Assembly (NCBI GenBank): GCA_002154345.1
Contig: MUNB01000052.1
Coordinates: forward strand, 1 to 42,140
DNA: 42,140 nucleotides
Origin: Streptomyces griseus
GTDB taxonomy: Bacteria > Actinomycetota > Actinomycetes > Streptomycetales > Streptomycetaceae
Direction: 5' to 3'
The notes below the pieces were generated by a model, which ran no database searches, was not told the DNA's origin, and saw nothing but the letters and a program-made list of their open reading frames with translations. A program made the position numbers and the translations under genes. The first letter of the stretch is position 1, and each line of letters begins with the position of its first letter. Shown in pieces: positions 1 to 33,134 of the stretch.

Positions 1-2067
1 GGAACCGAACAGCTCCCCGACGACCTTCATCCCCTCCAGGAGGGTGTTGTTCACGATGTCGAGGGCGGGGGTGGTCTGGAGTGCCTCATCCAGGTCGGCT
101 TCCAGGCCGTTCTTCTCACCGTCGATGATCCGCCGCTGGAGCCGTTCGTCCAGCGGGAGGGCCATCAGCTCCTCGGCCTTGCCCGCCTTCATCGACTTCA
201 TGTTGACGCCCTCGAACAGCTCCATCAGCCGCTGCAAGGGGTCATAGCCCTCCGCCCGGCGGTCGTAGATCAGATCGAGAGCGACCTTGACCTGCTCCTC
301 CTCCAGCCGGGCGATCGGCAGAATCTTCGAAGCGTGCACGATCGCGGAATCCAGCCCCGCCTTCACACACTCGTCCAGGAACACGGAGTTCAGCACCACC
401 CGGGCCGCCGGGTTCAGACCGAAGGAAATGTTGGAGAGGCCCAGCGTGGTCTGGACGTCGGGGTGGCGCTGCTTCAGCTCACGGATCGCCCCGATCGTCG
501 CGATGCCATCACCACGCGACTCCTCCTGCCCCGTGCAGATCGTGAAGGTCAGGGTGTCGATGAGAATGTCCGACTCGCGGATACCCCAGTTCGTGGTCAG
601 GTCCTCGATCAGCCGCTCCGCGATCGCGACCTTGTGCTCGACGGTGCGGGCCTGCCCCTCCTCATCGATCGTCAACGCGATCAACGCCGCACCGTGCTCA
701 GCAGCCAGGGCACTGACCTGCGCGAAACGGGACTCGGGGCCGTCACCATCCTCGTAGTTCACCGAGTTCAGCACCGCCCGCCCACCCAGCTTCTCCAACC
801 CAGCCCGCAGCACAGGAAGTTCGGTGGAGTCCAGCACGATCGGCAGCGTCGAAGCGGTCGCGAAGCGGCCGGCCAGCTCCGCCATGTCCGCAACACCGTC
901 ACGGCCCACGTAGTCGACGCAGAGGTCGAGCATGTGCGCGCCCTCACGGATCTGATCGCGAGCCATCTCCACACAGTCGTCCCACCGCGCCTCCAGCATC
1001 GCCTCACGGAACTTCTTCGAACCGTTCGCGTTCGTCCGCTCCCCGATCGCCAGATACGCGGTGTCCTGCCGGAACGGAATGTGCTGGTACAGCGAGGCGG
1101 CACCGGGCTCGGGGCGCGGGTCGCGCTCGGTCGGTGTGAGCTCGCGGGCGCGGTCGACGACGGCCTTCAGGTGCGCCGGCGTCGTACCGCAGCAGCCGCC
1201 GATGAGGGAGAGGCCGTAGTCCCGGACGAAGTGCTCCTGGGAGTCGGCGAGTCCGTCGGGGCCGAGCGGGAAGTGCGCACCGTCCTTGGTGAGGACCGGC
1301 AGGCCGGCGTTCGGCATGCACATCAACGGCGTACGCGAATGACGGGCGAGATAGCGCAAGTGCTCGCTCATCTCGTCCGGACCCGTCGAGCAGTTCAACC
1401 CGATCAGATCAATACCCAACGGCTCCAGAGCGGTCAGGGCCGCGCCGATCTCGGAGCCCAGCAGCATGACGCCGGTGGTCTCGAAGGCGAGGGAGCAGAT
1501 CAGCGGCACCTGAACACCCAGCGCGTCCATCGCCCGGCGCGCCCCGATGATGCTCGACTTCGTCTGCAACAGATCCTGGGTGGTCTCCACGATCAGCGCG
1601 TCGGAGCCGCCCGCGAGGAGGCCCTCCGCGTTCTTCTGGTAACCGTCGCGCAGGATGTCGTACGTGATGTGGCCGAGCGAGGGCAGCTTGGTGCCGGGGC
1701 CGATCGAGCCGAGGACCCACCGCTGGCGGCCGTCCTTCGCACCGAACTCATCCGCGACCTCGCGGGCGATCCGGGCACCCGACTCGGACAGCTCGTAGAT
1801 CCGGTCCGCGATCTCATACTCATTCGCCGCCGAATGGTTCGCACCAAACGTGTTCGTCTCCACACAGTCGACACCGACCGCGAAGTACTCCTCATGCACC
1901 GACCGCACGATGTCGGGCCGCGTGACGTTCAGGATCTCGTTGCAGCCTTCGAGATTCTCGAAATCCTCCAGTGTCGGGTCCTGTGCCTGGAGCATGGTGC
2001 CCATCGCCCCGTCGGCCACCACCACACGCGTGGCGAGTGCCTCTCGGAGCGCGTCTGCGCGGGTCAC
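1..2067 (-). CDS. metH: Cobalamin-dependent methionine synthase, partial (C-terminus beyond window edge)
   Basis: It transfers the methyl group of methyltetrahydrofolate to homocysteine via methylcobalamin and acts in the cytoplasm. The reading frame is open from a GTG at 2067 to base 1, giving 689 codons of a protein that is normally about 1,150 residues. The N-terminal homocysteine-binding domain shows its zinc ligands: GLNCSTG (around 1390) and the GGCCGT pair (around 1190). The pterin-binding domain follows, and the frame is cut in the helical cap of the B12 module. The GTG overlaps the metK stop (GTGA at 2064-2067), so the two genes are probably translated together. Together they would turn homocysteine into SAM, a plausible supply for the methyltransferase at 7327. 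Primary metabolism would be the alternative role. Identity is secure; dedication to the cluster is inference. Confidence 0.95.
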
Positions 2068-3293
2068 GACGAGTGGCCGGCGGCGGCGCGGAGTGCGTCC
2101 ACGCGGTCGGTGCGCTCCCAGGTGAAGTCCGGCAGCTCACGGCCGAAGTGGCCGTACGCCGCGGTCTGGGCGTAGATCGGGCGCAGCAGGTCGAGGTCGC
2201 GGATGATCGCGGCCGGGCGGAGGTCGAAGACCTCGCCGATCGCGTGCTCGATCTTCTCCGTGTCGACCGCGGCGGTGCCGAAGGTCTCCACGAAGAGACC
2301 GACCGGCTCGGCCTTGCCGATCGCGTACGCGACCTGGACCTCGCAGCGCGCGGCGAGACCGGCGGCGACCACGTTCTTGGCGACCCAGCGCATCGCGTAC
2401 GCCGCCGAGCGGTCGACCTTGGACGGGTCCTTGCCCGAGAACGCGCCGCCACCGTGGCGGGCCATGCCGCCGTACGTGTCGATGATGATCTTCCGGCCGG
2501 TCAGACCCGCGTCGCCCATCGGGCCGCCGATCTCGAAACGGCCGGTCGGGTTCACCAGCAGGCGGTAGCCCTCGGTGTCCAGCTTGATCCCGTCCTCGGC
2601 CAGTTGCGCGAGCACGTGCTCGACGACGTACTCGCGGATGTCGGGCGCGAGCAGCGAGTCCAGGTCGATGTCGCTCGCGTGCTGCGAGGAGACGACCACC
2701 GTGTCCAGCCGCACCGCCTTGTCACCGTCGTACTCGATGGTGACCTGCGTCTTGCCGTCCGGACGCAGATACGGGACGGTCCCGTCCTTGCGTACCTCGG
2801 ACAGTCGGCGCGAGAGGCGGTGGGCGAGGTGGATCGGGAGCGGCATCAGCTCCGGCGTCTCGTCGCAGGCGTAGCCGAACATCAGGCCCTGGTCGCCGGC
2901 GCCCTGCTTGTCGAGCTCGTCGGCCTCTCCCCCGGCCGCCGCACCCTCGACCCGCTTCTCGTACGCGGTGTCGACGCCCTGCGCGATGTCCGGCGACTGC
3001 GCGCCGATCGACACCGAGACGCCACAGGAAGCACCGTCGAAGCCCTTCCGCGAGGAGTCGTAGCCGATGTCGAGGATCTTGTCGCGCACGAGCTGGGCGA
3101 TCGGTGCGTACGCCTTGGTCGTGACCTCGCCGGCCACGTGCACCAGACCGGTGGTGATCAGCGTCTCGACGGCGACCCGGGACGACGGGTCCTCGCGCAG
3201 GAGCGCGTCCAGGATCGTGTCGCTGATCTGGTCGGCGATCTTGTCGGGATGGCCCTCGGTGACGGACTCCGAGGTGAAAAGGCGGCGAGACAC
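2064..3293 (-). CDS. metK: S-adenosylmethionine synthetase
   Basis: It makes SAM from methionine and ATP. The 409-residue product has the family's usual length and opens with [20 protein letters not shown], the ATP/methionine-binding N-terminus. The glycine-rich [19 protein letters not shown] segment lies near residue 270. I chose the GTG at 3293 because a GGAGGAG ribosome site lies 6 bases upstream and the conserved N-terminus begins there; the frame stays open for 18 more unconserved codons. The stop overlaps the metH start by GTGA. In S. coelicolor metK and metH are not adjacent as far as I recall, so a paired copy next to a polyketide cluster suggests a second set serving secondary metabolism. 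Confidence 0.96.
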
Positions 3294-3405
3294 GGTGAGC
3301 TCCTCCGGCTGGGCGGTGTCCTGTCGAACAGTCGGCCCGACCCTCACCGTCGCAACTGGAGTACGGCTCGGAAACCGCTACAGCGCGCACGTGGCGGACC
3401 GGGCT

Positions 3406-3437
3406 TCGAGGACCGTTCGAGTCGGCGGCGAACCCGG
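3406..3437 (+). promoter_or_regulatory. SARP-type direct repeat upstream of glycosyltransferase
   Basis: Heptamers TCGAGGA (3406-3412) and TCGAGTC (3417-3423) are spaced exactly 11 bp. A hexamer 8 bp further on (3432-3437, ACCCGG) would occupy the -10 position but is a poor match. The start codon at 3447 lies only about 10 bases beyond it, so the transcript could be leaderless. Confidence 0.5.
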
Positions 3438-3446
3438 ACCCGGACC

Positions 3447-4592
3447 ATGCCCGTCATGAAGATTCTCTTTGTGGCGGGCGGCACGTCGGGTGTCATCTTC
3501 TCGCTGATCCCGCTGGCACAGGCGGCCAGGAACGCCGGACACGAGGTCGTGATGGCGGCCCCCGAGGACTGCATGCGCACGATCAACGGCGCCGGCGTTC
3601 CCGGCTTCCCGGTGACCTCCATGACGATGAAGGACTTCCTCCACGACCGACGAGGGGTCCTGCAGACGATTCCCGAGGACCTCCACGAGCGCTATCTCTT
3701 CAACGGGCGCTGCTTCGGACGGTACGCGGCGGCCTGCGTGGACGGCCTCATCTCGCTGATCGACAGCTGGCGGCCGGACGTGGTCGTCGGCGGTGTGCTG
3801 GCGTTCGCCGGTCCGCTGGCCGCCGCGTACGCCGGAGTTCCGTATGTGAAGCATGCCGTGGACATGGGAGAGCCGCGGACGATCGACCTCGCGGCGGCGG
3901 CGGAGCTCGGCCCCGAGCTGGAGGCGCTCGGCCTCTACGAGATGCCGGGCGCCGATCTGTTCATCGACACCTGCCCGCCGTCGCTCCGGCCGGCCGACGC
4001 TCCGCCCGCGCAGCTGATGCGCTATGTCCCGTACACGGCGCAGAAGCCGTTGGAGCCGTGGATGTTCACCCGGGGCGACCGGCCGCGGGTGCTGGTGAGC
4101 GCGGGCAGCCGGGTCACCAAGGACTCCGACTTCGAGATCCTCTCCGGTCTGGTGGAGAAGGTGGCCGCGCTGGACGTGGAACTGCTGGTCGCCGCGCCCG
4201 AGGCGGTGGCGGCGGAGCTGGGGCCGCTGCCGGAGAACGTACGGGCCGGATGGATACCGCTGGACGTGGTGGCCAGGACCTGCGACCTGACGGTCAGCCA
4301 CGCCGGAGGCAACACCGTGCTCGGCAGCATGGCGGCCGGTGTGCCGCAGGTGCTGATCCCGTATCTGCCGTACGTGGTCGGCTACACCGAGCGGTTGAGC
4401 GCCTACGGCGCGGCCAGGATGGTCGATCCCGCGCAGGACTCGCCGAAGAACATCGCCGAGGCCTGCCGCGAGGTGCTGGAGGACGGGGCGTACCGGGAGC
4501 GGGCACGAGCGGTGTCGGCGGAGATGGCGCTGCTCCCGGCTCCGGCGCAGGTGGTCGGCGCGGTGGAGGAGCTGGTGGCGCGGAGGGCCTGA
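3447..4592 (+). CDS. GT1-family glycosyltransferase (UrdGT2/DnrS-like)
   Basis: Predicted to transfer an NDP-deoxysugar to the aromatic aglycone. The 381-residue protein has the two-domain GT-B layout of actinobacterial polyketide glycosyltransferases. The N-terminus MKILFVAGGTSGVIFSLIPL resembles UrdGT2, a C-glycosyltransferase. The nucleotide-sugar segment HAGGNTVLGSMAAGVPQVLI lies near residues 284-303. Two in-frame ATGs, at 3447 and 3456, are possible. Neither has a clear ribosome site, and the SARP-like repeat just upstream would fit a leaderless mRNA starting near 3447. It is convergent with the gene at 4737. Linkage type (O or C) cannot be told from sequence. Given the sugar genes, a forosamine-type donor is the likely substrate. 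Confidence 0.88.
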   Translation: MPVMKILFVAGGTSGVIFSLIPLAQAARNAGHEVVMAAPEDCMRTINGAGVPGFPVTSMTMKDFLHDRRGVLQTIPEDLHERYLFNGRCFGRYAAACVDGLISLIDSWRPDVVVGGVLAFAGPLAAAYAGVPYVKHAVDMGEPRTIDLAAAAELGPELEALGLYEMPGADLFIDTCPPSLRPADAPPAQLMRYVPYTAQKPLEPWMFTRGDRPRVLVSAGSRVTKDSDFEILSGLVEKVAALDVELLVAAPEAVAAELGPLPENVRAGWIPLDVVARTCDLTVSHAGGNTVLGSMAAGVPQVLIPYLPYVVGYTERLSAYGAARMVDPAQDSPKNIAEACREVLEDGAYRERARAVSAEMALLPAPAQVVGAVEELVARRA

Positions 4593-4608
4593 GTCCGCGG
4601 GGCCGCGA

Positions 4609-4661
4609 ACGCCTCGGCTCCGGCACGGCCTCCGGAGGAGGTCCGGCCGGAGCCGAGGCGT
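4609..4661. terminator. Inverted repeat between convergent genes (first)
   Basis: A perfect 16-bp stem (4609-4624 with 4646-4661) encloses a 21-base loop that holds a smaller CCTCC/GGAGG palindrome. It lies 16 bases after the stop of the plus-strand glycosyltransferase and is symmetric enough to act in both directions. There is no T tract, as is common in Streptomyces. Confidence 0.65.
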
Positions 4662-4697
4662 GTTCCTGTTCCGTTCGGCCGTCGGCGGCTGTCCGCG

Positions 4698-4729
4698 GCC
4701 GGCCACGGCCGAGAGCGGCCGTGGCCGGC
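4698..4729. terminator. Inverted repeat between convergent genes (second)
   Basis: A perfect 13-bp stem (4698-4710 with 4717-4729) has a 6-base loop GAGAGC. It lies just downstream of the stop of the minus-strand gene at 4737 and probably terminates that operon. Confidence 0.65.
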
Positions 4730-12442: not shown

Positions 12443-12473
12443 TTGACCTCAAGTGCGCTTGAGATTTTACGTT
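12443..12473 (+). promoter_or_regulatory. SoxR box in a 19-bp-spacer promoter
   Basis: The -35 TTGACC (12443-12448) and -10 TACGTT (12468-12473) are separated by 19 bp, the overlong spacer typical of MerR-family promoters. The spacer carries the palindrome CTCAAG-TGCG-CTTGAG (12448-12463), which matches the SoxR operator core known from E. coli soxS and the S. coelicolor SoxR regulon. No soxR gene is in the window, so the host's SoxR would act here. It controls the quinone reductase, FMN reductase and exporter operon. Confidence 0.88.
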
Positions 12474-12534
12474 CTTCACGTGGCCCTCCCACGGGCCGCG
12501 ACAGCGAAACCATTGATACAAAGGGGTGTTGAAC

Positions 12535-13446
12535 ATGAAGGCTGCCGCGTTCCACGCATTCGGGGGTCCCGAGGTCCTGGAGCTGGTGGAGGTCCCGATT
12601 CCCGAGGTCGGAGCCGGTGAGGTGCGCGTCCGGGTGAAGGCCGCGGGCTCCCAGCCCACCGACTGCGCCGTGCGCGGCGGCTGGAACCCGCCGGGCTTCA
12701 CCATCACCTTCCCGCACATCACCGGCGGCGACTTCGCCGGCGTGGTGGACGCGGTCGGCGAGGGCGTCAGCGGCTTCGCTCCCGGCGACGAGGTCCTCGG
12801 TTACCGTACGCAGCTGACCTACGCGGAGTACGTGGTCGCTCCCGCCGACCAGATCGTGGCCAAGCCCGCCGCGCTCTCCTGGGAGGTCGCCGGCAGCCTC
12901 TCCGCCTCCGGCCAGACCGCGCACACCGCGATCGAGATCCTCGGTGTCGCCGCGGGCGAGACCGTGCTGATCAACGGCGCGGCCGGCGGGGTCGGCACCA
13001 TCGCGGTACAGCTCGCGGTCGCGCGCGGCGCCAAGGTGATCGCCACCGGCCGCGAGGAGAACCACGCCTACCTGCGCGAGCTCGGCGCGATCCCGGTCGC
13101 CTACGGCGACGGCCTGATCGACCGGGTGCGCGAGGCCGCTCCGGAGGGTGTGGACGCGGCGCTGGACGCGGCGAGCGCCGACGGCCTGCGGGTCGCGGCC
13201 GAGCTGGTCAAGGACAAGGACCGGGTGGGCACGATCTTCGCCTACGAGGTCTACCAGGAGCTCGGCGTGCGGTGGATCGGCAGCCAGCGCTCCGCGCAGC
13301 GGCTCGCCGAGCTGGCCGGTCTGGTCGCCGACGGCAAGCTCAAGGTCCACGTGCGCAAGACCTTCCCGCTGGCCGAGGCCGCCGAGGCGCACCGCGAGCT
13401 GGAGACCGGCCACGGTCGCGGCAAGATCGTTCTGCTGACCGACTGA
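12535..13446 (+). CDS. NADPH:quinone oxidoreductase (zinc-independent MDR family)
   Basis: A 303-residue medium-chain reductase of the quinone oxidoreductase class. The start MKAAAFHAFGGPEVLEL is the family N-terminus and VLINGAAGGVGTIAVQLA (around residue 145) is the NADPH-binding loop; the catalytic-zinc ligands of alcohol dehydrogenases are absent. The ATG at 12535 has AAGGGG 8 bases before it. ActVI-2/ActVI-4 enoyl reductases belong to the same superfamily, but the SoxR box upstream and the FMN reductase downstream match SoxR-regulon oxidoreductases of S. coelicolor better. Its likely job is reducing the quinone product or intermediates, as detoxification or tailoring. Confidence 0.87.
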   Translation: MKAAAFHAFGGPEVLELVEVPIPEVGAGEVRVRVKAAGSQPTDCAVRGGWNPPGFTITFPHITGGDFAGVVDAVGEGVSGFAPGDEVLGYRTQLTYAEYVVAPADQIVAKPAALSWEVAGSLSASGQTAHTAIEILGVAAGETVLINGAAGGVGTIAVQLAVARGAKVIATGREENHAYLRELGAIPVAYGDGLIDRVREAAPEGVDAALDAASADGLRVAAELVKDKDRVGTIFAYEVYQELGVRWIGSQRSAQRLAELAGLVADGKLKVHVRKTFPLAEAAEAHRELETGHGRGKIVLLTD

Positions 13447-13566
13447 TCCACGCCGGACGGGCCGAGGAGTACGCCGCACCACCGCGTCTCCTCGGCCCCG
13501 CACAGGCCGCACCACCCTTCCGCTCCGTCCCGTCCGCTCGTACTTTCCCGAAAGAGGAACCCCCAC

Positions 13567-14154
13567 ATGTCCCAGAACCCGCTCAAGATCGGCGTCCTCA
13601 TCGGCAGCGTGCGCACCGGACGGTTCGCCGACAAGATCGCCCAGTGGTTCATCTCCGAGATCAGCCAGCGCGAGAACCTGGAGATCCACGTCATCGACCT
13701 GTCCGAGCCCGCTCTCGTCGAGGAGCTCAAGCTCAGCCTCGACGCCCTGGAGCCCGCGGACGGCGCGCCGTGCCTGGCCCAGCGCATCGGCGGACTCGAC
13801 GGCTTCGTCATCATCACGCCGGAGTACAACCACGGCTACCCGGCCTCGCTGAAGCTGGCCATCGACTACGTCTACAACGAGTGGCGCGCCAAGCCGGTCG
13901 GCTTCGTCTCGTACGGCGGCATGGCGGGCGGGCACCGGGCCGTGGAGCAGCTGCGCCAGGTCTTCGCCGAGATGCACGCCGTGACGCTGCGTGACACCGT
14001 CAGCTTCCACATGGCCTGGGAGAAGTTCGACGAGAGCGGTCAGCCGCTCGACGCGGCCGGCGCCTCCAAGGCCTCCGCCGTCCTGCTGGACCAGCTCACG
14101 TGGTGGGGCCTGACCCTGCGCGAGGGCCGTGCCGCACGTCCTTACGAGGGCTGA
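13567..14154 (+). CDS. NADPH-dependent FMN reductase (flavodoxin-like)
   Basis: A 195-residue flavoprotein. GSVRTGRFADKIAQW is the flavin-phosphate loop and TPEYNHGYPASLKLAIDYVYNEW is the second flavin segment that defines this family (ArsH/azoreductase-like). It lies 120 bases after the quinone reductase and 3 bases before the exporter ATG, in the SoxR-type operon; S. coelicolor has an FMN reductase in its SoxR regulon. It could also supply reduced flavin to the class D monooxygenase at 17943 or the luciferase-like enzyme at 19708, as no ActVB-like flavin reductase is seen in the window. Confidence 0.86.
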   Translation: MSQNPLKIGVLIGSVRTGRFADKIAQWFISEISQRENLEIHVIDLSEPALVEELKLSLDALEPADGAPCLAQRIGGLDGFVIITPEYNHGYPASLKLAIDYVYNEWRAKPVGFVSYGGMAGGHRAVEQLRQVFAEMHAVTLRDTVSFHMAWEKFDESGQPLDAAGASKASAVLLDQLTWWGLTLREGRAARPYEG

Positions 14155-14157
14155 GCC

Positions 14158-15822
14158 ATGGCAGAGGAGCGAGTAGCGGCGGAGACGCCGGGCACGCCGG
14201 AGTTCCGGGCGGTGCGCATGGTCATCATCGGGCTGATGCTGGGCCTGATGCTGTCGTCGCTCGACTTCGTCATCGTCGCCGCCTCGATGCGGACGATCGC
14301 CGACGAGTTGCAGGGCCAGACGATGCAGGCCTGGGCCACCACGGCCTACATCGTCACCTCGACGATCGCCACGCCGCTGTTCGGCAAGCTGTCCGACCTC
14401 TACGGTCGCAAGAAGCTGTACATGCTGGCGATCGGCATCTTCCTGCTCGGCTCGCTGCTCTGCGGCCTGGCCGGGTCGATGTACCAGCTCGCGGGCTTCC
14501 GTGCGTTGCAGGGCATCGGCGGCGGCGGACTCATGGCACTCGCCTTCGCGATCATGGGCGACATCCTGACGCCCGAGCTGCGGGCCCGCTACCAGGTGTG
14601 GTTCTCCGCCGTCTCGGCCATCGCCGGTGTGGCCGGCGCTCCGGTCGGCGGCCTCTTCGCCGGTGCGGACACGCTGCTCGGCATCGACGGCTGGCGCTGG
14701 GCGTTCCTGATCAACCTTCCGATCGGGATCATCGCGCTGGTCGTGGTGCACCTGAAGTTCACGATGCCCGCCAAGCGGCGCGAGCAGCGGATCGACTACG
14801 TCGGCGCGGCCTGGCTCATCGTCTGTCTCGGGCCGTGGCTGGTCGTCTCGGAGGAGGGGCGGCACTGGGGCTGGGGATCGCCGCTCACGCTGTCGCTGCT
14901 GCTGACCGGTCTGGTCGGCCTGGTGCTCTTCCTGGCCACCGAACGGCGGATGGCGGACGCCGCCGTGATTCCGCTGCGGCTGTTCAGGAACCGGTTGTTC
15001 TCGGTGATCAACGGCGCCAACGTCATCATCGGCATCGGCGTGTTCGGATCCTTGATCTTCCTTCCCCTCTACCTCCAGCTGGTCAAGGGCCAGACTCCCG
15101 GCGAAGCCGGACTGATGCTGATCCTGCAGACCGCGGGCGTGCTCACCACCAGCCGGAGCCTGAGCAAGGTCATCAACCGTTCCGGCCGGTACCGGGCGTT
15201 CCTGCTGCTCGGCATGGGCGTGGTCTCCGGATCGCTGTTCGCCTTCGCCGCGCTGGACCAGGGTTCGCCGCTCTGGCTGGTCGGCGCGCTGATCTATCTG
15301 CTGGGCGCGGGCGTCGGCATCTGCTTCCCGGTCACGCTGCTGGCGCTGCAGAACAACGCCGCCAAGGAGGACATGGGCGTCTCCAGCGCCGCCTACTCCT
15401 TCTTCCGCGGCATCGGCGGCGCGGCCGGTACGGCGCTGTTCCTGTCGATGATGTTCTCGCTGGCCGACAGCCGGATCGCGGAGGCGCTGGCGAAGGTCGA
15501 GCGGAGCACGGAGTTCCGGGCCGCGCTGAACGATCCGGCGGTGCTGGCCGACGCGTCCAACCTGCCGATCGTGGAGACCGTGAAGGGGACCGGCGGGATC
15601 AACCTCGACGACACCTCCTTCCTGATCACCGCCGACCCGAGGCTCACGGCGCCGATCGTGAACGGCATCGCCGAGGCGATGAGCGCGGTCTTCCTGGCCG
15701 GCGGCTGTGTGATGCTGATCGGCTTCGGTCTCTCCTTCATGCTGCCCAGGCGGGCCCAGCAGAAGGAGGAACCGGCGGCGGACGCCGAGGAGCAGGAGTC
15801 GCAGCCGGCCGCCTCCTCCTGA
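14158..15822 (+). CDS. DHA2-family (14-TM) drug exporter of the MFS
   Basis: A 554-residue inner-membrane antiporter with about 14 hydrophobic segments. The motif A region LFGKLSDLYGRKKLYM is near residue 75 and the motif C-like stretch is near VSAIAGVAGAPVGGLFAG. It belongs to the EmrB/QacA group. The long extracytoplasmic loop before the last helices and the charged C-terminal tail are usual. The ATG follows the FMN reductase stop by 3 bases. As the third gene of the SoxR-box operon it is the prime candidate for product export and self-resistance. A second exporter is encoded at 31827. Confidence 0.93.
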   Translation: MAEERVAAETPGTPEFRAVRMVIIGLMLGLMLSSLDFVIVAASMRTIADELQGQTMQAWATTAYIVTSTIATPLFGKLSDLYGRKKLYMLAIGIFLLGSLLCGLAGSMYQLAGFRALQGIGGGGLMALAFAIMGDILTPELRARYQVWFSAVSAIAGVAGAPVGGLFAGADTLLGIDGWRWAFLINLPIGIIALVVVHLKFTMPAKRREQRIDYVGAAWLIVCLGPWLVVSEEGRHWGWGSPLTLSLLLTGLVGLVLFLATERRMADAAVIPLRLFRNRLFSVINGANVIIGIGVFGSLIFLPLYLQLVKGQTPGEAGLMLILQTAGVLTTSRSLSKVINRSGRYRAFLLLGMGVVSGSLFAFAALDQGSPLWLVGALIYLLGAGVGICFPVTLLALQNNAAKEDMGVSSAAYSFFRGIGGAAGTALFLSMMFSLADSRIAEALAKVERSTEFRAALNDPAVLADASNLPIVETVKGTGGINLDDTSFLITADPRLTAPIVNGIAEAMSAVFLAGGCVMLIGFGLSFMLPRRAQQKEEPAADAEEQESQPAASS

Positions 15823-15840
15823 CCGGCCGGCACGGCACGC

Positions 15841-15880
15841 GGGCGGGGCCCCACGGACTTCGGTCCGTGGGGCCCCGCCC
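15841..15880. terminator. Strong bidirectional terminator
   Basis: A perfect 18-bp stem (15841-15858 with 15863-15880) with a TTCG tetraloop, between the convergent exporter (plus) and DsbA-like (minus) genes. Confidence 0.92.
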
Positions 15881-15915
15881 TTCGCCCGTGTACGCGTACG
15901 TACCAGTGCGGTGGC

Positions 15916-16638
15916 TCAGGCGGCCGGTGTCGGGACCGGGCGCGGCGTGACCCGGCGCAGTTCGAGGAAGGCGTCCTCGCGCACCAGCGCGGCGAAGCCG
16001 TCCCACAGCGCACCGGCCCGTTCTCCGGCCGGCGCCGAACGCAGCACCGGTCCGAACACGCCGACCCGGCCGCCGACCGAGACCACCGGCACGCCGATGA
16101 CGTCGAGTTCCGCACCGTCGCGCGGAATGGACTCGTGCGCCGTACGCAGGTCCTCGTCCCACTCCGCCGAGCCCATGGACGCCACGAGGCCGGCCGGCAG
16201 TCCGCGCTCGGCCAGCGCATCGGCGACCACGTCGCGCGCCTGCTCCAGGAGCGAGGCCTGCACCTCGCGCTTGGCCTCCGCGGACAGCCCGCGCACCCGC
16301 TCGTGCAGCCCGTCGTAGAGACCGCCCGGCGCGTGGAAGCGGCGGGCCACCGCCTCGTACAGCGGGCCGACGCTCTGCGCGCCGTGCCCGGCCGCCGCCG
16401 CGGCGAGCACCCGTACCGGTCCCGGCGCCAGCTCCAGGAAGCGTGCGTGCTCCTTGTCCAGGCCCGGCGCTCCTTCCAGATAGCCGAGTCCCGTCGGACG
16501 GACGGACAGCGACAGCGGACGCACCGAGGCCGCCTCGCGGAGCCACTTGTACGTGATCCAGGTCCAGGCACAGACCGGATCGACCCAGAGGGTGACCTCC
16601 TCCGGGTCCGTGACACCGTGCGTGCGGTCGTCGGTCAT
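15916..16638 (-). CDS. DsbA-like protein of the mycothiol-dependent nitroreductase (Rv2466c) type, with altered active site
   Basis: A cytoplasmic thioredoxin-fold protein of 240 residues with no signal peptide. The segment DPVCAWTWITYKWL (residues 20-33) lines up with DPLCPWCWITSRWI as I recall it for Rv2466c. The first Cys (23) is kept, the second is Thr26 and the Pro is Ala24. A later VPVVSVGGRVGVFGPVL matches the family's cis-Pro region. DsbA-like proteins occur in aromatic polyketide clusters (FrnE in frenolicin). The loss of the resolving Cys argues against a disulfide exchanger and for a one-Cys mechanism using mycothiol, or a non-redox role. The ATG at 16638 has GGAGG 6 bases upstream. 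A SARP-like tandem repeat lies in front of it. Confidence 0.8.
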   Translation of the reverse strand: MTDDRTHGVTDPEEVTLWVDPVCAWTWITYKWLREAASVRPLSLSVRPTGLGYLEGAPGLDKEHARFLELAPGPVRVLAAAAAGHGAQSVGPLYEAVARRFHAPGGLYDGLHERVRGLSAEAKREVQASLLEQARDVVADALAERGLPAGLVASMGSAEWDEDLRTAHESIPRDGAELDVIGVPVVSVGGRVGVFGPVLRSAPAGERAGALWDGFAALVREDAFLELRRVTPRPVPTPAA

Positions 16639-16710
16639 CGTGTTCCTCCAGGGAATAGGTGGACCCGGGCGGGACCCGGATCCGGCTTGCGGCGCCTCCA
16701 CGCCAGCACG

Positions 16711-21994: not shown

Positions 21995-22804
21995 TCAGGC
22001 GGACCGCGCGACCAGCGTACGGTGCGGCGCGCGCACGGCCGCCTCGCCCGGCTCCGGGTTCAGCAACCGCAGCTGGATGCGCTTGAGTTCCACCGACGGC
22101 TCCAGGCCCAGCTCGTCGGCGAGCAGCCGGCGCACGTTCTGGTAGGCCTGGAGCGCCTCCGCGCGGCGGCCGGTGGCGCCGAGAGCGGCGATCAGCCGGT
22201 TGTGGAACCACTCGTTGAGCGGGTAGTCGTTGATCAGCCGGCGCAGCTCCGCGATGGACTCCCGGTGCTGGCCGAGCCGGTCCTTGGCCTCGATGCGGAT
22301 CTCGTAGGCCCGGATGCGCAGCTCCTCCAGATGCGCGAGGTGGCCGGTGAGCACGTCACCGGCCGGGAAGTTGGCCAGCGCCGGTCCGCGCCACAGCTCC
22401 AGCGCCTGTCCGACGGCCAGCAGCGCCATGGTCGGGTCCCCGTCGGCCAGCAGCAGCCGGGCGCGGTTGACCAGCCGCTCGAAGACCTGGACGTCGACCT
22501 CGTCCTCGTCCACCTGGATCGCGTAACCCGGCGGGCAGGTGACGATCAGGTGGCGGTCGGGGTCGGTCAGGCGCTCGTTCACGAACATCCGGCGCGCGTG
22601 GTAGACGTACGTCTGGAGCGTGGTGACGGCGCTGCGCGGCGGCCGCTCCCCCCACAGCTCCTGAATGAGCGACTCGGCCGTGATGATCTCGTTCGGCCGG
22701 GTGAGCAGAAGTGCCAGGGTCTGACAGACCTTCGGGGTTCCGGGACGGTGGACACGGCCGTCGTCGGTGACGATCTCGAAGGGTCCGATGAGATTGAATC
22801 GCAC
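21995..22804 (-). CDS. SARP-family transcriptional activator
   Basis: A 269-residue regulator of the small ActII-ORF4 type. Residues 1-95 form the OmpR-like winged helix (FEIVTDDGRVHRPGTPKVCQ; LIQELWGERPPRSAVTTLQT; a VTCPPGYAIQV wing). The rest is the bacterial transcriptional activation domain (FPAGDVLTGHLAHLEELRIR; EALQAYQNVRRLLADELGLE). The start is a GTG at 22804 with GAGGAGC 7 bases upstream; the open frame before it is unconserved. SARPs bind direct repeats with an 11-bp step overlapping the -35 region, and such repeats precede many transcription units here, so it is very probably the pathway activator. It is in line with the sugar genes but separated by 148 bases that may hold its own promoter. 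Confidence 0.95.
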   Translation of the reverse strand: MRFNLIGPFEIVTDDGRVHRPGTPKVCQTLALLLTRPNEIITAESLIQELWGERPPRSAVTTLQTYVYHARRMFVNERLTDPDRHLIVTCPPGYAIQVDEDEVDVQVFERLVNRARLLLADGDPTMALLAVGQALELWRGPALANFPAGDVLTGHLAHLEELRIRAYEIRIEAKDRLGQHRESIAELRRLINDYPLNEWFHNRLIAALGATGRRAEALQAYQNVRRLLADELGLEPSVELKRIQLRLLNPEPGEAAVRAPHRTLVARSA

Positions 22805-22952
22805 GGAAATTGCTCCTCGTCGAATTCGGGCTGATTTCTTGTGCCACGGCGCCTGTCGCAGAAATTCGGATGGAGTGCAGGTTCGCAGTCGAGTCTCCAA
22901 GCAGTGCATTCCGCATGCAACCATCGCCGCGTCAGGCCGATGTCAACTTTCG

Positions 22953-31873: not shown

Positions 31874-33134
31874 GAGAGCTCCGTGGTCGTGGTGTCGAAG
31901 GAGGTCCGGGCGTCCCGGACGGAAGCAGGCCGGTGACGGCCACCAGGGCGCCGGACGCCGCGACGGCGGTCACCAGCCACAGCGCCGGGCCGATGTCCGC
32001 TCCCGCGGTGACCAGCGCCGCCGCCGGAGCGGTCAGCAGGACCGGTCCCGACTGCACCCAGGTCTGGTAGAAGGCCGTCGCCGCCGGACGCAGCTCCTCC
32101 GGGACCGCGTCGACCGCCTGGAGGTGCAGCGCGGTGAAGGCCAGGAGGAACGCCAGGCCGAGCACCGCGGTCGCCGGCAACAGTCCGGCCGCGCCCGAGC
32201 CGGCCGCTCCGGCGTCGCGCGGCACGAGCAGACAGCCGACGACGGCGAGCACGGCTCCGGCGGCCGCCGACCGGTCCGGACCCAGCCGGACGGCGATCCG
32301 CGCCGACCACAGGGCGGTCAGCGCCGCCGGGGCCGCCGCGGGCAGGAACACCAGGGCCGTCCGCAACGGGGTCCAGCCGCGGTGGTGCACCTGCCAGGCG
32401 GTGACGAGCAGCAGGACGACGTACGCGCCGTTGAACGCGGCGGCCGTCAGCGCGGCGCGGCGCAGCGGCCGGCAGCGCCACAGCACACGCGGTCCGGCCG
32501 ACGACCGCCCCGGGCGGCCCCGCGGACGGGCCCGCCGGCGGACCGGCGGATCGCGCGGGACGAGCCGGGCGGCGAGGACCAGCAGCAGCAGCGCCGCCGG
32601 CACCGGCAGGGCCGGCACGAGCCGCCAGTCCACTCCGGTCAGCAGGCCCGCCAGCAGCAGTCCGCCGCAGAATCCGGCGGTGCCGCACAGCGCGTACCCG
32701 GAGACCGCACGACGGCGGTCCGGCCCGTCCGGGACGGCGGCCAGGATGATGGCGAGCCCGGTCGGCGCGGTGAGCGCCGCGCAGCCGCCCTTGACCGCAC
32801 GGCCGAGGATCAGCCAGCCGCCGGAGTCGGCGGCCGCGCTCGCCGCGGACGCCAGCGCGAACACCGCGAGCGCGACGAGCTGGACGCGCCGCCGGCCGAA
32901 CCGCCGGCCCAGCGCGGCGGCCCAGGGCAGCACCGCGGCGAACCCGGCGGCGAACCCTCCGACCAGCCAGAACAGCACGGCCGGTGTCAGGTCCAGCGCG
33001 TCTCCGACGACCGGTGCGGACACCACGGCGGCGGAGACCTCCAGCGCGTCGACGAGCATCGTGGCCGCCAGCACGCAGACCAGCGGCCACGGCGTCCGCC
33101 GGACCGCCGGAGGGCCGACGGGGCCCGGCCCCAT
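31827..33134 (-). CDS. MFS transporter (second exporter)
   Basis: A 435-residue polytopic membrane protein with about 12-14 hydrophobic segments. The motif A-like loop is ALGRRFGRRRVQLVALAVFA near residue 75, followed by long Leu/Ala/Val helices. It is very Arg- and Pro-rich between helices (RLVPRDPPVRRRARPRGRPG). It resembles drug:H+ antiporters of polyketide clusters. The ATG overlaps the upstream stop (TGATG at 33132-33136). Its C-terminus overlaps the second ACP gene by 47 bases, a longer overlap than others here. It is probably export or resistance, redundant with the gene at 14158. Confidence 0.85.
   Translation of the reverse strand: MGPGPVGPPAVRRTPWPLVCVLAATMLVDALEVSAAVVSAPVVGDALDLTPAVLFWLVGGFAAGFAAVLPWAAALGRRFGRRRVQLVALAVFALASAASAAADSGGWLILGRAVKGGCAALTAPTGLAIILAAVPDGPDRRRAVSGYALCGTAGFCGGLLLAGLLTGVDWRLVPALPVPAALLLLVLAARLVPRDPPVRRRARPRGRPGRSSAGPRVLWRCRPLRRAALTAAAFNGAYVVLLLVTAWQVHHRGWTPLRTALVFLPAAAPAALTALWSARIAVRLGPDRSAAAGAVLAVVGCLLVPRDAGAAGSGAAGLLPATAVLGLAFLLAFTALHLQAVDAVPEELRPAATAFYQTWVQSGPVLLTAPAAALVTAGADIGPALWLVTAVAASGALVAVTGLLPSGTPGPPSTPRPRSSHDDPSTVPYVRDGGR

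Follow-up and report, generated by a model that had tools for sequence, protein, structure and literature searches.

The window analysed here, a 42,140-nt stretch of Streptomyces griseus DNA (bases 1-42140 of contig C468 in a 7.82-Mb draft genome of 846 contigs), carries a type II polyketide synthase (PKS) cluster. Within it, a promoter with a SoxR-type operator precedes genes for a quinone reductase (QR), an FMN reductase (FMNR) and an exporter of the major facilitator superfamily (MFS) (Table 1). A first-pass annotation had described this promoter as TTGACC, a 19-bp spacer carrying CTCAAG-TGCG-CTTGAG, and TACGTT; all of these elements lie where it had placed them, and the dyad is perfect. 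The spacer spans 12449-12467, and the promoter and its box lie 92 nt before the ATG of QR, which has an additional in-frame GTG start at 12526. A TCAA-N6-TTGA dyad between elements 19 nt apart is the arrangement of the Streptomyces-type SoxR regulon, and the genes behind it, a transporter and redox enzymes by NCBIfam and Pfam, are of the kind found among its targets.

Table 1. Features of the SoxR-type operon and the SARP-family regulator gene in the window
Feature	Coordinates	Strand	Basis
-35 element TTGACC	12443..12448	+	read directly; unchanged in 12/12 aligned upstream regions
SoxR-type operator, dyad CTCAAG-TGCG-CTTGAG	12448..12463	+	sequence, genome scan, alignment; within 19-nt spacer
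-10 element TACGTT	12468..12473	+	read directly; relatives have similar TANGTT
QR, MDR-type quinone reductase	12535..13446	+	PF13602, PF08240, PF00107; PIG3-type NCBIfam model below cut-off
GC-rich hairpin between QR and FMNR	13459..13498	+	fold of 13447-13566, z -2.4
FMNR, NADPH-dependent FMN reductase family	13567..14154	+	PF03358, 129 bits
MFS exporter, OtrB/Tcr3-like	14158..15822	+	PF07690; NCBIfam
Terminator-like hairpin between convergent MFS and DsbA-like genes	15841..15880		18-bp stem; z -6.2 for 15823-15900
SARP-family regulator gene, candidate biosynthesis switch	21995..22924	-	PF03704 158 bits, PF00486; 75% identical to a pSA3239 SARP

The gaps between the genes are 120 nt (QR-FMNR) and 3 nt (FMNR-MFS), and the three are likely to share one transcript. 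For the exporter, the best NCBIfam models, OtrB and Tcr3, score far under their cut-offs, and the DHA2 family model TIGR00711 reaches 222.2 bits, slightly short of its cut-off of 230.2. The first-pass annotation had called it a 14-transmembrane protein; the MFS assignment holds, and the count of 14, which hydropathy did not resolve cleanly, rests on the family.

The exact sequence CTCAAG-N4-CTTGAG occurs once in the draft genome; by base composition alone, a genome should contain 0.13 exact copies of it and 0.0008 of TTGACCTCAA-N6-TTGAG. Only this exact copy stands out, because the window's matches to the dyad at ≤3 mismatches (5) are fewer than in shuffles (10.2), and there is no second operator in the window at ≤2 mismatches. 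A sigma-70 promoter scan found nothing because it permits spacers of 16-18 nt only.

A genome scan for the same operator was a check named beforehand. In the host genome (7.8 Mb), TTGACCTCAA-N6-TTGAG occurs eight times at ≤1 mismatch and the reversed pattern not at all. We translated the genes downstream of all eight sites and of one site with 2 mismatches, and scanned the eight of these genes outside the window with Pfam. The seven sites outside the window precede genes for an ABC exporter, an MFS exporter (a second boxed MFS gene in this genome), an FMN reductase (an FMNR paralogue, 50% identical, on another contig), an MDR-type reductase, a transketolase and two ABM monooxygenases. The 2-mismatch site precedes a gene for an NmrA-type epimerase, and a 3-mismatch site (L068) has no gene assigned. 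Compared by gene class, all but the MFS exporters are known or predicted Streptomyces SoxR targets: the S. coelicolor regulon (SCO7008, SCO1909, SCO1178, SCO4266, SCO2478 and SCO0320ext) was defined by RNA-Seq, quantitative reverse transcription PCR and electrophoretic mobility shift assays (EMSA), the last showing binding at around 5-10 nM, and transketolase is a predicted target in S. avermitilis (PMC4146615). For one of the three operon classes that had initially been counted among SoxR targets, a correction applies: the exporter of the S. coelicolor regulon described there is an ABC rather than an MFS protein (PMC4146615).

As the first-pass annotation had stated, the window has no soxR gene of its own: 0 of the 20 matches to a SoxR model in the genome lie on C468. 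A true SoxR is encoded on another contig, the only match over the curated cut-off (231.3 bits versus 116.9; next best, 48.5), and the other 19 are weaker and fall under it. This protein has the four-cysteine [2Fe-2S] motif C-x2-C-x-C-x5-C and shows strong similarity to SoxR of E. coli (2zhg) that extends through its DNA-binding region. Control of the window operon by SoxR is very likely.

The operator is conserved at close relatives of the operon. QR matches occur in 164 of 199 genomes of the genus; we examined 30 of these loci, scoring a box as ≤2 mismatches within 250 nt. All six loci with QR identity of at least 60% have one. One further locus (L030; QR 59%) has a box ~1.45 kb upstream and was left out of the count for the more distant loci given below, and L033 is truncated by a contig end. 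A search of named genomes gave 15 loci, seven with a box at 0 mismatches (all Streptomyces, QR at least 79% identical), two with a box at 2 mismatches and six with none before QR; the nearest named relatives of the operon are Streptomyces. Across 12 aligned upstream regions from 11 genomes, the window included, TTGACCTCAA is invariant and the flanks have diverged. Around the operon, Streptomyces sp. NRRL S-31 and S. seoulensis have near-identical gene order to the window, exporter included. A SoxR over the cut-off is encoded in 13 of the 15 genomes searched, and the other two, both Cohnella, have QR relatives without a box. In these tallies, rows from one genome were merged (L027/L096, G181 = G395; L101/L128, G248 = G396; G341/G393, by coordinates), and the genomes of L091 and L093 lie outside the ketosynthase (KS) and SoxR searches.

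When the promoter pattern was searched genus-wide, 187 of 392 genomes matched, with no reversed-control hit among the matches listed. Of 30 such loci, an ABC exporter 79-84% identical to the boxed one of the host follows at 16, QR-FMNR at two (one being the window) and neither at 12; thus the promoter type alone does not identify the operon. At three of the 30 (L106, L117 and L134), the small proteins encoded downstream look glyoxalase/VOC-like by eye.

In other clusters, the same functions are found behind separate boxes. A distant type II PKS cluster (G089; identities to the window of 65% for KS, 61% for QR, 66% for FMNR and 59% for MFS) has FMNR, MFS and QR spread over three non-adjacent places within ~19 kb of one PKS region, and a separate box (2, 1 and 2 mismatches, respectively) stands ~70-100 nt before each start codon. 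In Streptomyces sp. NBC_00158, whose cluster is on a plasmid, there are three boxes, one before QR-FMNR (0 mismatches), one before an MFS-glycosyltransferase-QR2 set (1) whose MFS is a different one, and one before a DsbA-family gene (1; L152:45628, minus strand), unlike the unboxed Rv2466c-family gene of the window described below; another MFS gene in that cluster has no box. On pSA3239, the plasmid of S. lavendulae CCM 3239 that carries the auricin cluster aur1, a box with 0 mismatches lies immediately before FMNR. A weaker box on the auricin plasmid (2 mismatches; L105:2727, minus strand) precedes a MarR-family regulator gene.

Eight related regions and the window (483,474 bases) hold 15 distinct sites versus one reversed-pattern hit, the 15 being 19 raw hits minus the L055/L105 overlap and two reverse readings of one site. 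Ten precede QR, FMNR or MFS, and five precede other genes. These regions were selected by the presence of QR or FMNR, so that the count does not amount to a blind survey. All seven exporter matches at E ≤ 1e-150, found in six of 392 genomes, are downstream of a box: three in a QR-FMNR-MFS operon (window, G096 and S. seoulensis), one with its own box (G089), one as a copy on contig C27 of the host, and two (G019 and G149) with the box 829 nt upstream. Since the boxed functions recur in more than one arrangement, linkage or chance is a poor explanation for their association with the box.

The cluster around the operon encodes a ketosynthase, chain-length factor, acyl carrier protein (ACP), ketoreductase, aromatase and TcmI-type cyclase, together with FAD monooxygenases, an acyl-CoA carboxylase, deoxysugar enzymes, a glycosyltransferase and a SARP regulator; genes for acyl-CoA-dehydrogenase-like and luciferase-like monooxygenases are also present. 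We compared 33 of the 49 annotated genes of the 50-kb pSA3239 stretch that carries aur1 with the window. Of the 33 proteins, 25 are matched, largely in colinear order and mostly at 64-92% identity, so that the PKS, deoxysugar and accessory genes place the window among aur1-type clusters. The MFS, MAT and TetR genes of aur1 are unmatched in the window. By its genes, then, the cluster resembles aur1, a pyranonaphthoquinone pathway; auricin itself belongs to the spiroketal pyranonaphthoquinones and carries D-forosamine (PMC10409956).

Because the cluster is auricin-like, it is plausible that its product acts as inducer and that the operon serves self-protection. We put at about 70% the probability that this is a SoxR-driven self-protection operon induced by the cluster's own quinone or a late intermediate. 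In such a scheme, SoxR from the host core, encoded on another contig, would sit on the operator between the over-spaced -35 and -10 elements, and while reduced would leave the promoter nearly silent. The quinone product or late intermediate would oxidise its [2Fe-2S] centre, and the oxidised protein would reshape the 19-bp spacer and allow RNA polymerase to transcribe QR, FMNR and the MFS gene. The reductases probably convert the quinone to a less redox-cycling form, and the pump would export it. Since the reductase and pump genes sit behind a site for a SoxR encoded elsewhere, the antibiotic itself probably triggers the defence of the cell against it. The SoxR of S. coelicolor is a direct sensor of redox-active compounds, and actinorhodin and plumbagin are among those to which its response has been tested (PMC5288332). 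The sequence itself gives the promoter, the operator and its genome-wide counterparts, a SoxR with the cysteine motif, the conservation, the gene order and the terminator-like hairpin; SoxR binding, the inducer, the single transcript and the protective role are inferences.

Several observations weigh against this interpretation. Among loci with QR identity below 60%, a box lies within 250 nt at only 2 of 24. In G096, whose QR is 92% identical, the right half-site has two changes, alone among the aligned regions. G089 has a second FMNR-like gene (52%) with no box. On pSA3239, FMNR is boxed but has neither QR nor a window-type exporter beside it, and the plasmid's own MFS gene lacks a box. Lastly, the hairpin in the QR-FMNR gap could lower read-through. 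As a conserved attenuator this hairpin was rejected, as by eye it is found in some relatives and missing in others. In NRRL S-31, the same gap is ~620 nt (L090:10904-11528), GC-rich and by eye repetitive-looking.

As the main alternative, the operon might serve SoxR-controlled tailoring, with FMNR feeding reduced flavin to the acyl-CoA-dehydrogenase-like and luciferase-like monooxygenases and QR reducing an intermediate, in a feed-forward timing of late steps. Both monooxygenase families, which often require a flavin reductase, are encoded in the window, and pSA3239 retains a boxed FMNR beside the same set without QR. In addition, some S. coelicolor SoxR targets resemble actinorhodin tailoring enzymes (PMC4146615). 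Yet in four species neither those monooxygenases nor PKS genes are matched within 10 kb of a boxed QR-FMNR. An exporter also belongs to the set in the window, NRRL S-31, S. seoulensis and G096, and in G089 it stands behind a separate box; the boxed FMNR paralogue of the host lies on another contig. Tailoring thus appears rather unlikely, and self-protection is the better, if unproven, reading.

It is much less probable that another MerR-family regulator reads the site. MerR-type promoters share the long spacer, and the 19 sub-cut-off matches to the SoxR model would supply candidates. However, the host sites lie before genes of the kinds that make up the S. coelicolor SoxR regulon, for which EMSA demonstrated binding (PMC4146615), the host SoxR is like that of E. 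coli across the DNA-binding region, and the window itself holds no match to the SoxR model. Least credible of all is that the dyad terminates the gene upstream or is a palindrome that arose by chance: a pattern scan does class it as terminator-like (a 6-bp stem, then ATTTTACGTT), but a stem of just 6 bp is short, conservation extends to the -35 and -10 elements, the dyad is imperfect in several relatives, the box is kept though the upstream gene varies (SnoaL-like, hydrolase, aconitase or transposase), and the exact core is hardly expected by chance in a genome.

S. eurythermus, S. achromogenes, S. mutabilis and S. caniscabiei each have a boxed QR-FMNR pair that lacks any PKS match within 10 kb, which argues for a role apart from biosynthesis. 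In S. eurythermus, the pair lies between aconitase and GH92 genes and adjoins a cluster-like hydrolase and 4,6-dehydratase, and none of the three KS matches is on its contig. The S. achromogenes pair has the same hydrolase and dehydratase, and that of S. mutabilis adjoins a transposase gene. In S. caniscabiei (L101:10001-12085), the box is intact (0 mismatches), QR is in three pieces in different frames and MFS is partial; QR appears frameshifted and the operon decaying. In trees, these cluster-free copies are nested among cluster-borne ones: S. mutabilis with S. seoulensis (QR 97/92; FMNR unresolved), S. eurythermus and S. achromogenes with NRRL S-31 (QR 88/94; FMNR 100/97), and S. caniscabiei FMNR with G096 (90/89). 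These copies would be either relics of lost clusters or transfers of the pair alone.

These patterns lead us to a tentative proposal, that the two reductases and the exporter together make up a portable module for immunity to quinone antibiotics, one that has no regulator of its own and plugs into the resident SoxR. Such a module would work on arrival in a new host, because Streptomyces genomes already have the sensor. If so, it would move with clusters between linear plasmids and chromosomes, could be built gene by gene with separate boxes, and would be kept by cluster-free species as defence against quinone-making neighbours. How a mobile cluster could bring protection that works on arrival, through the existing sensor of the host, thereby becomes testable. 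A SoxR box beside reductase and exporter genes may also serve as a sequence tag for clusters of redox-active products and for their resistance genes.

Streptomyces SoxR is known to answer self-made quinones via scattered targets; here its operator lies inside a quinone-type cluster, where it would drive an operon of dedicated genes. The S. coelicolor regulon likewise has a long-spacer dyad promoter, a chromosomal SoxR, and redox enzymes and an exporter as targets, and is induced with a self-made quinone antibiotic; its targets, however, are separate genes across the genome with an ABC exporter, whereas the window has two reductases and an MFS pump in one operon within a PKS cluster (PMC4146615). 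The granaticin cluster, also of a pyranonaphthoquinone, is tied to a SoxR-like regulator, gra-orf20, but there the regulator gene is inside the cluster and its loss raised production, while the window lacks soxR and its targets are of resistance type (PMC8733708). In Stenotrophomonas maltophilia, the MFS pump gene mfsA is under direct SoxR regulation, as reported for paraquat resistance, with no link to a biosynthetic cluster in the opening of the abstract (PMC4411124). A SoxR site in the oligomycin cluster has been tabulated (PMC12527672), and hence a link between SoxR and antibiotic clusters as such is already known (PMC8733708; PMC12527672). Searches of an open-access library listed no title or abstract opening on a protective operon driven by SoxR within a type II PKS cluster, and the auricin papers listed there contain no occurrence of SoxR.

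The first-pass annotation had also seen SARP-type sites in the rest of the cluster. A SARP gene is there, but a simple heptad scan gave sites at chance level: 3 heptad triplets versus 2.0 ± 1.6, and 2 strong heptad pairs versus 2.2 ± 1.5, in random sequence of the same dinucleotide make-up.

Downstream of the operon and facing it, 15916-16701 (minus strand) encodes a DsbA-like protein of the mycothiol-dependent nitroreductase family Rv2466c (PF22234), a gene that has no SoxR box at ≤2 mismatches. Between the ACP gene and a FAD-SDR gene, the open reading frames tried on both strands of 31874-33133 (~1.3 kb) gave no Pfam match; the corresponding position of pSA3239 holds an MFS gene. An EryCIII-like glycosyltransferase is encoded at 3519-4592 (plus strand), at the end of a long plus-strand open reading frame, and the frame opposite it (3378-4706, minus strand) matched no Pfam family. 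In the relatives G096 and NRRL S-31, a second ketosynthase gene (L138:10365-12925; L090:38-1303) lies beyond the end that matches the left edge of the window, where the window has MetK (2064-3347) instead.

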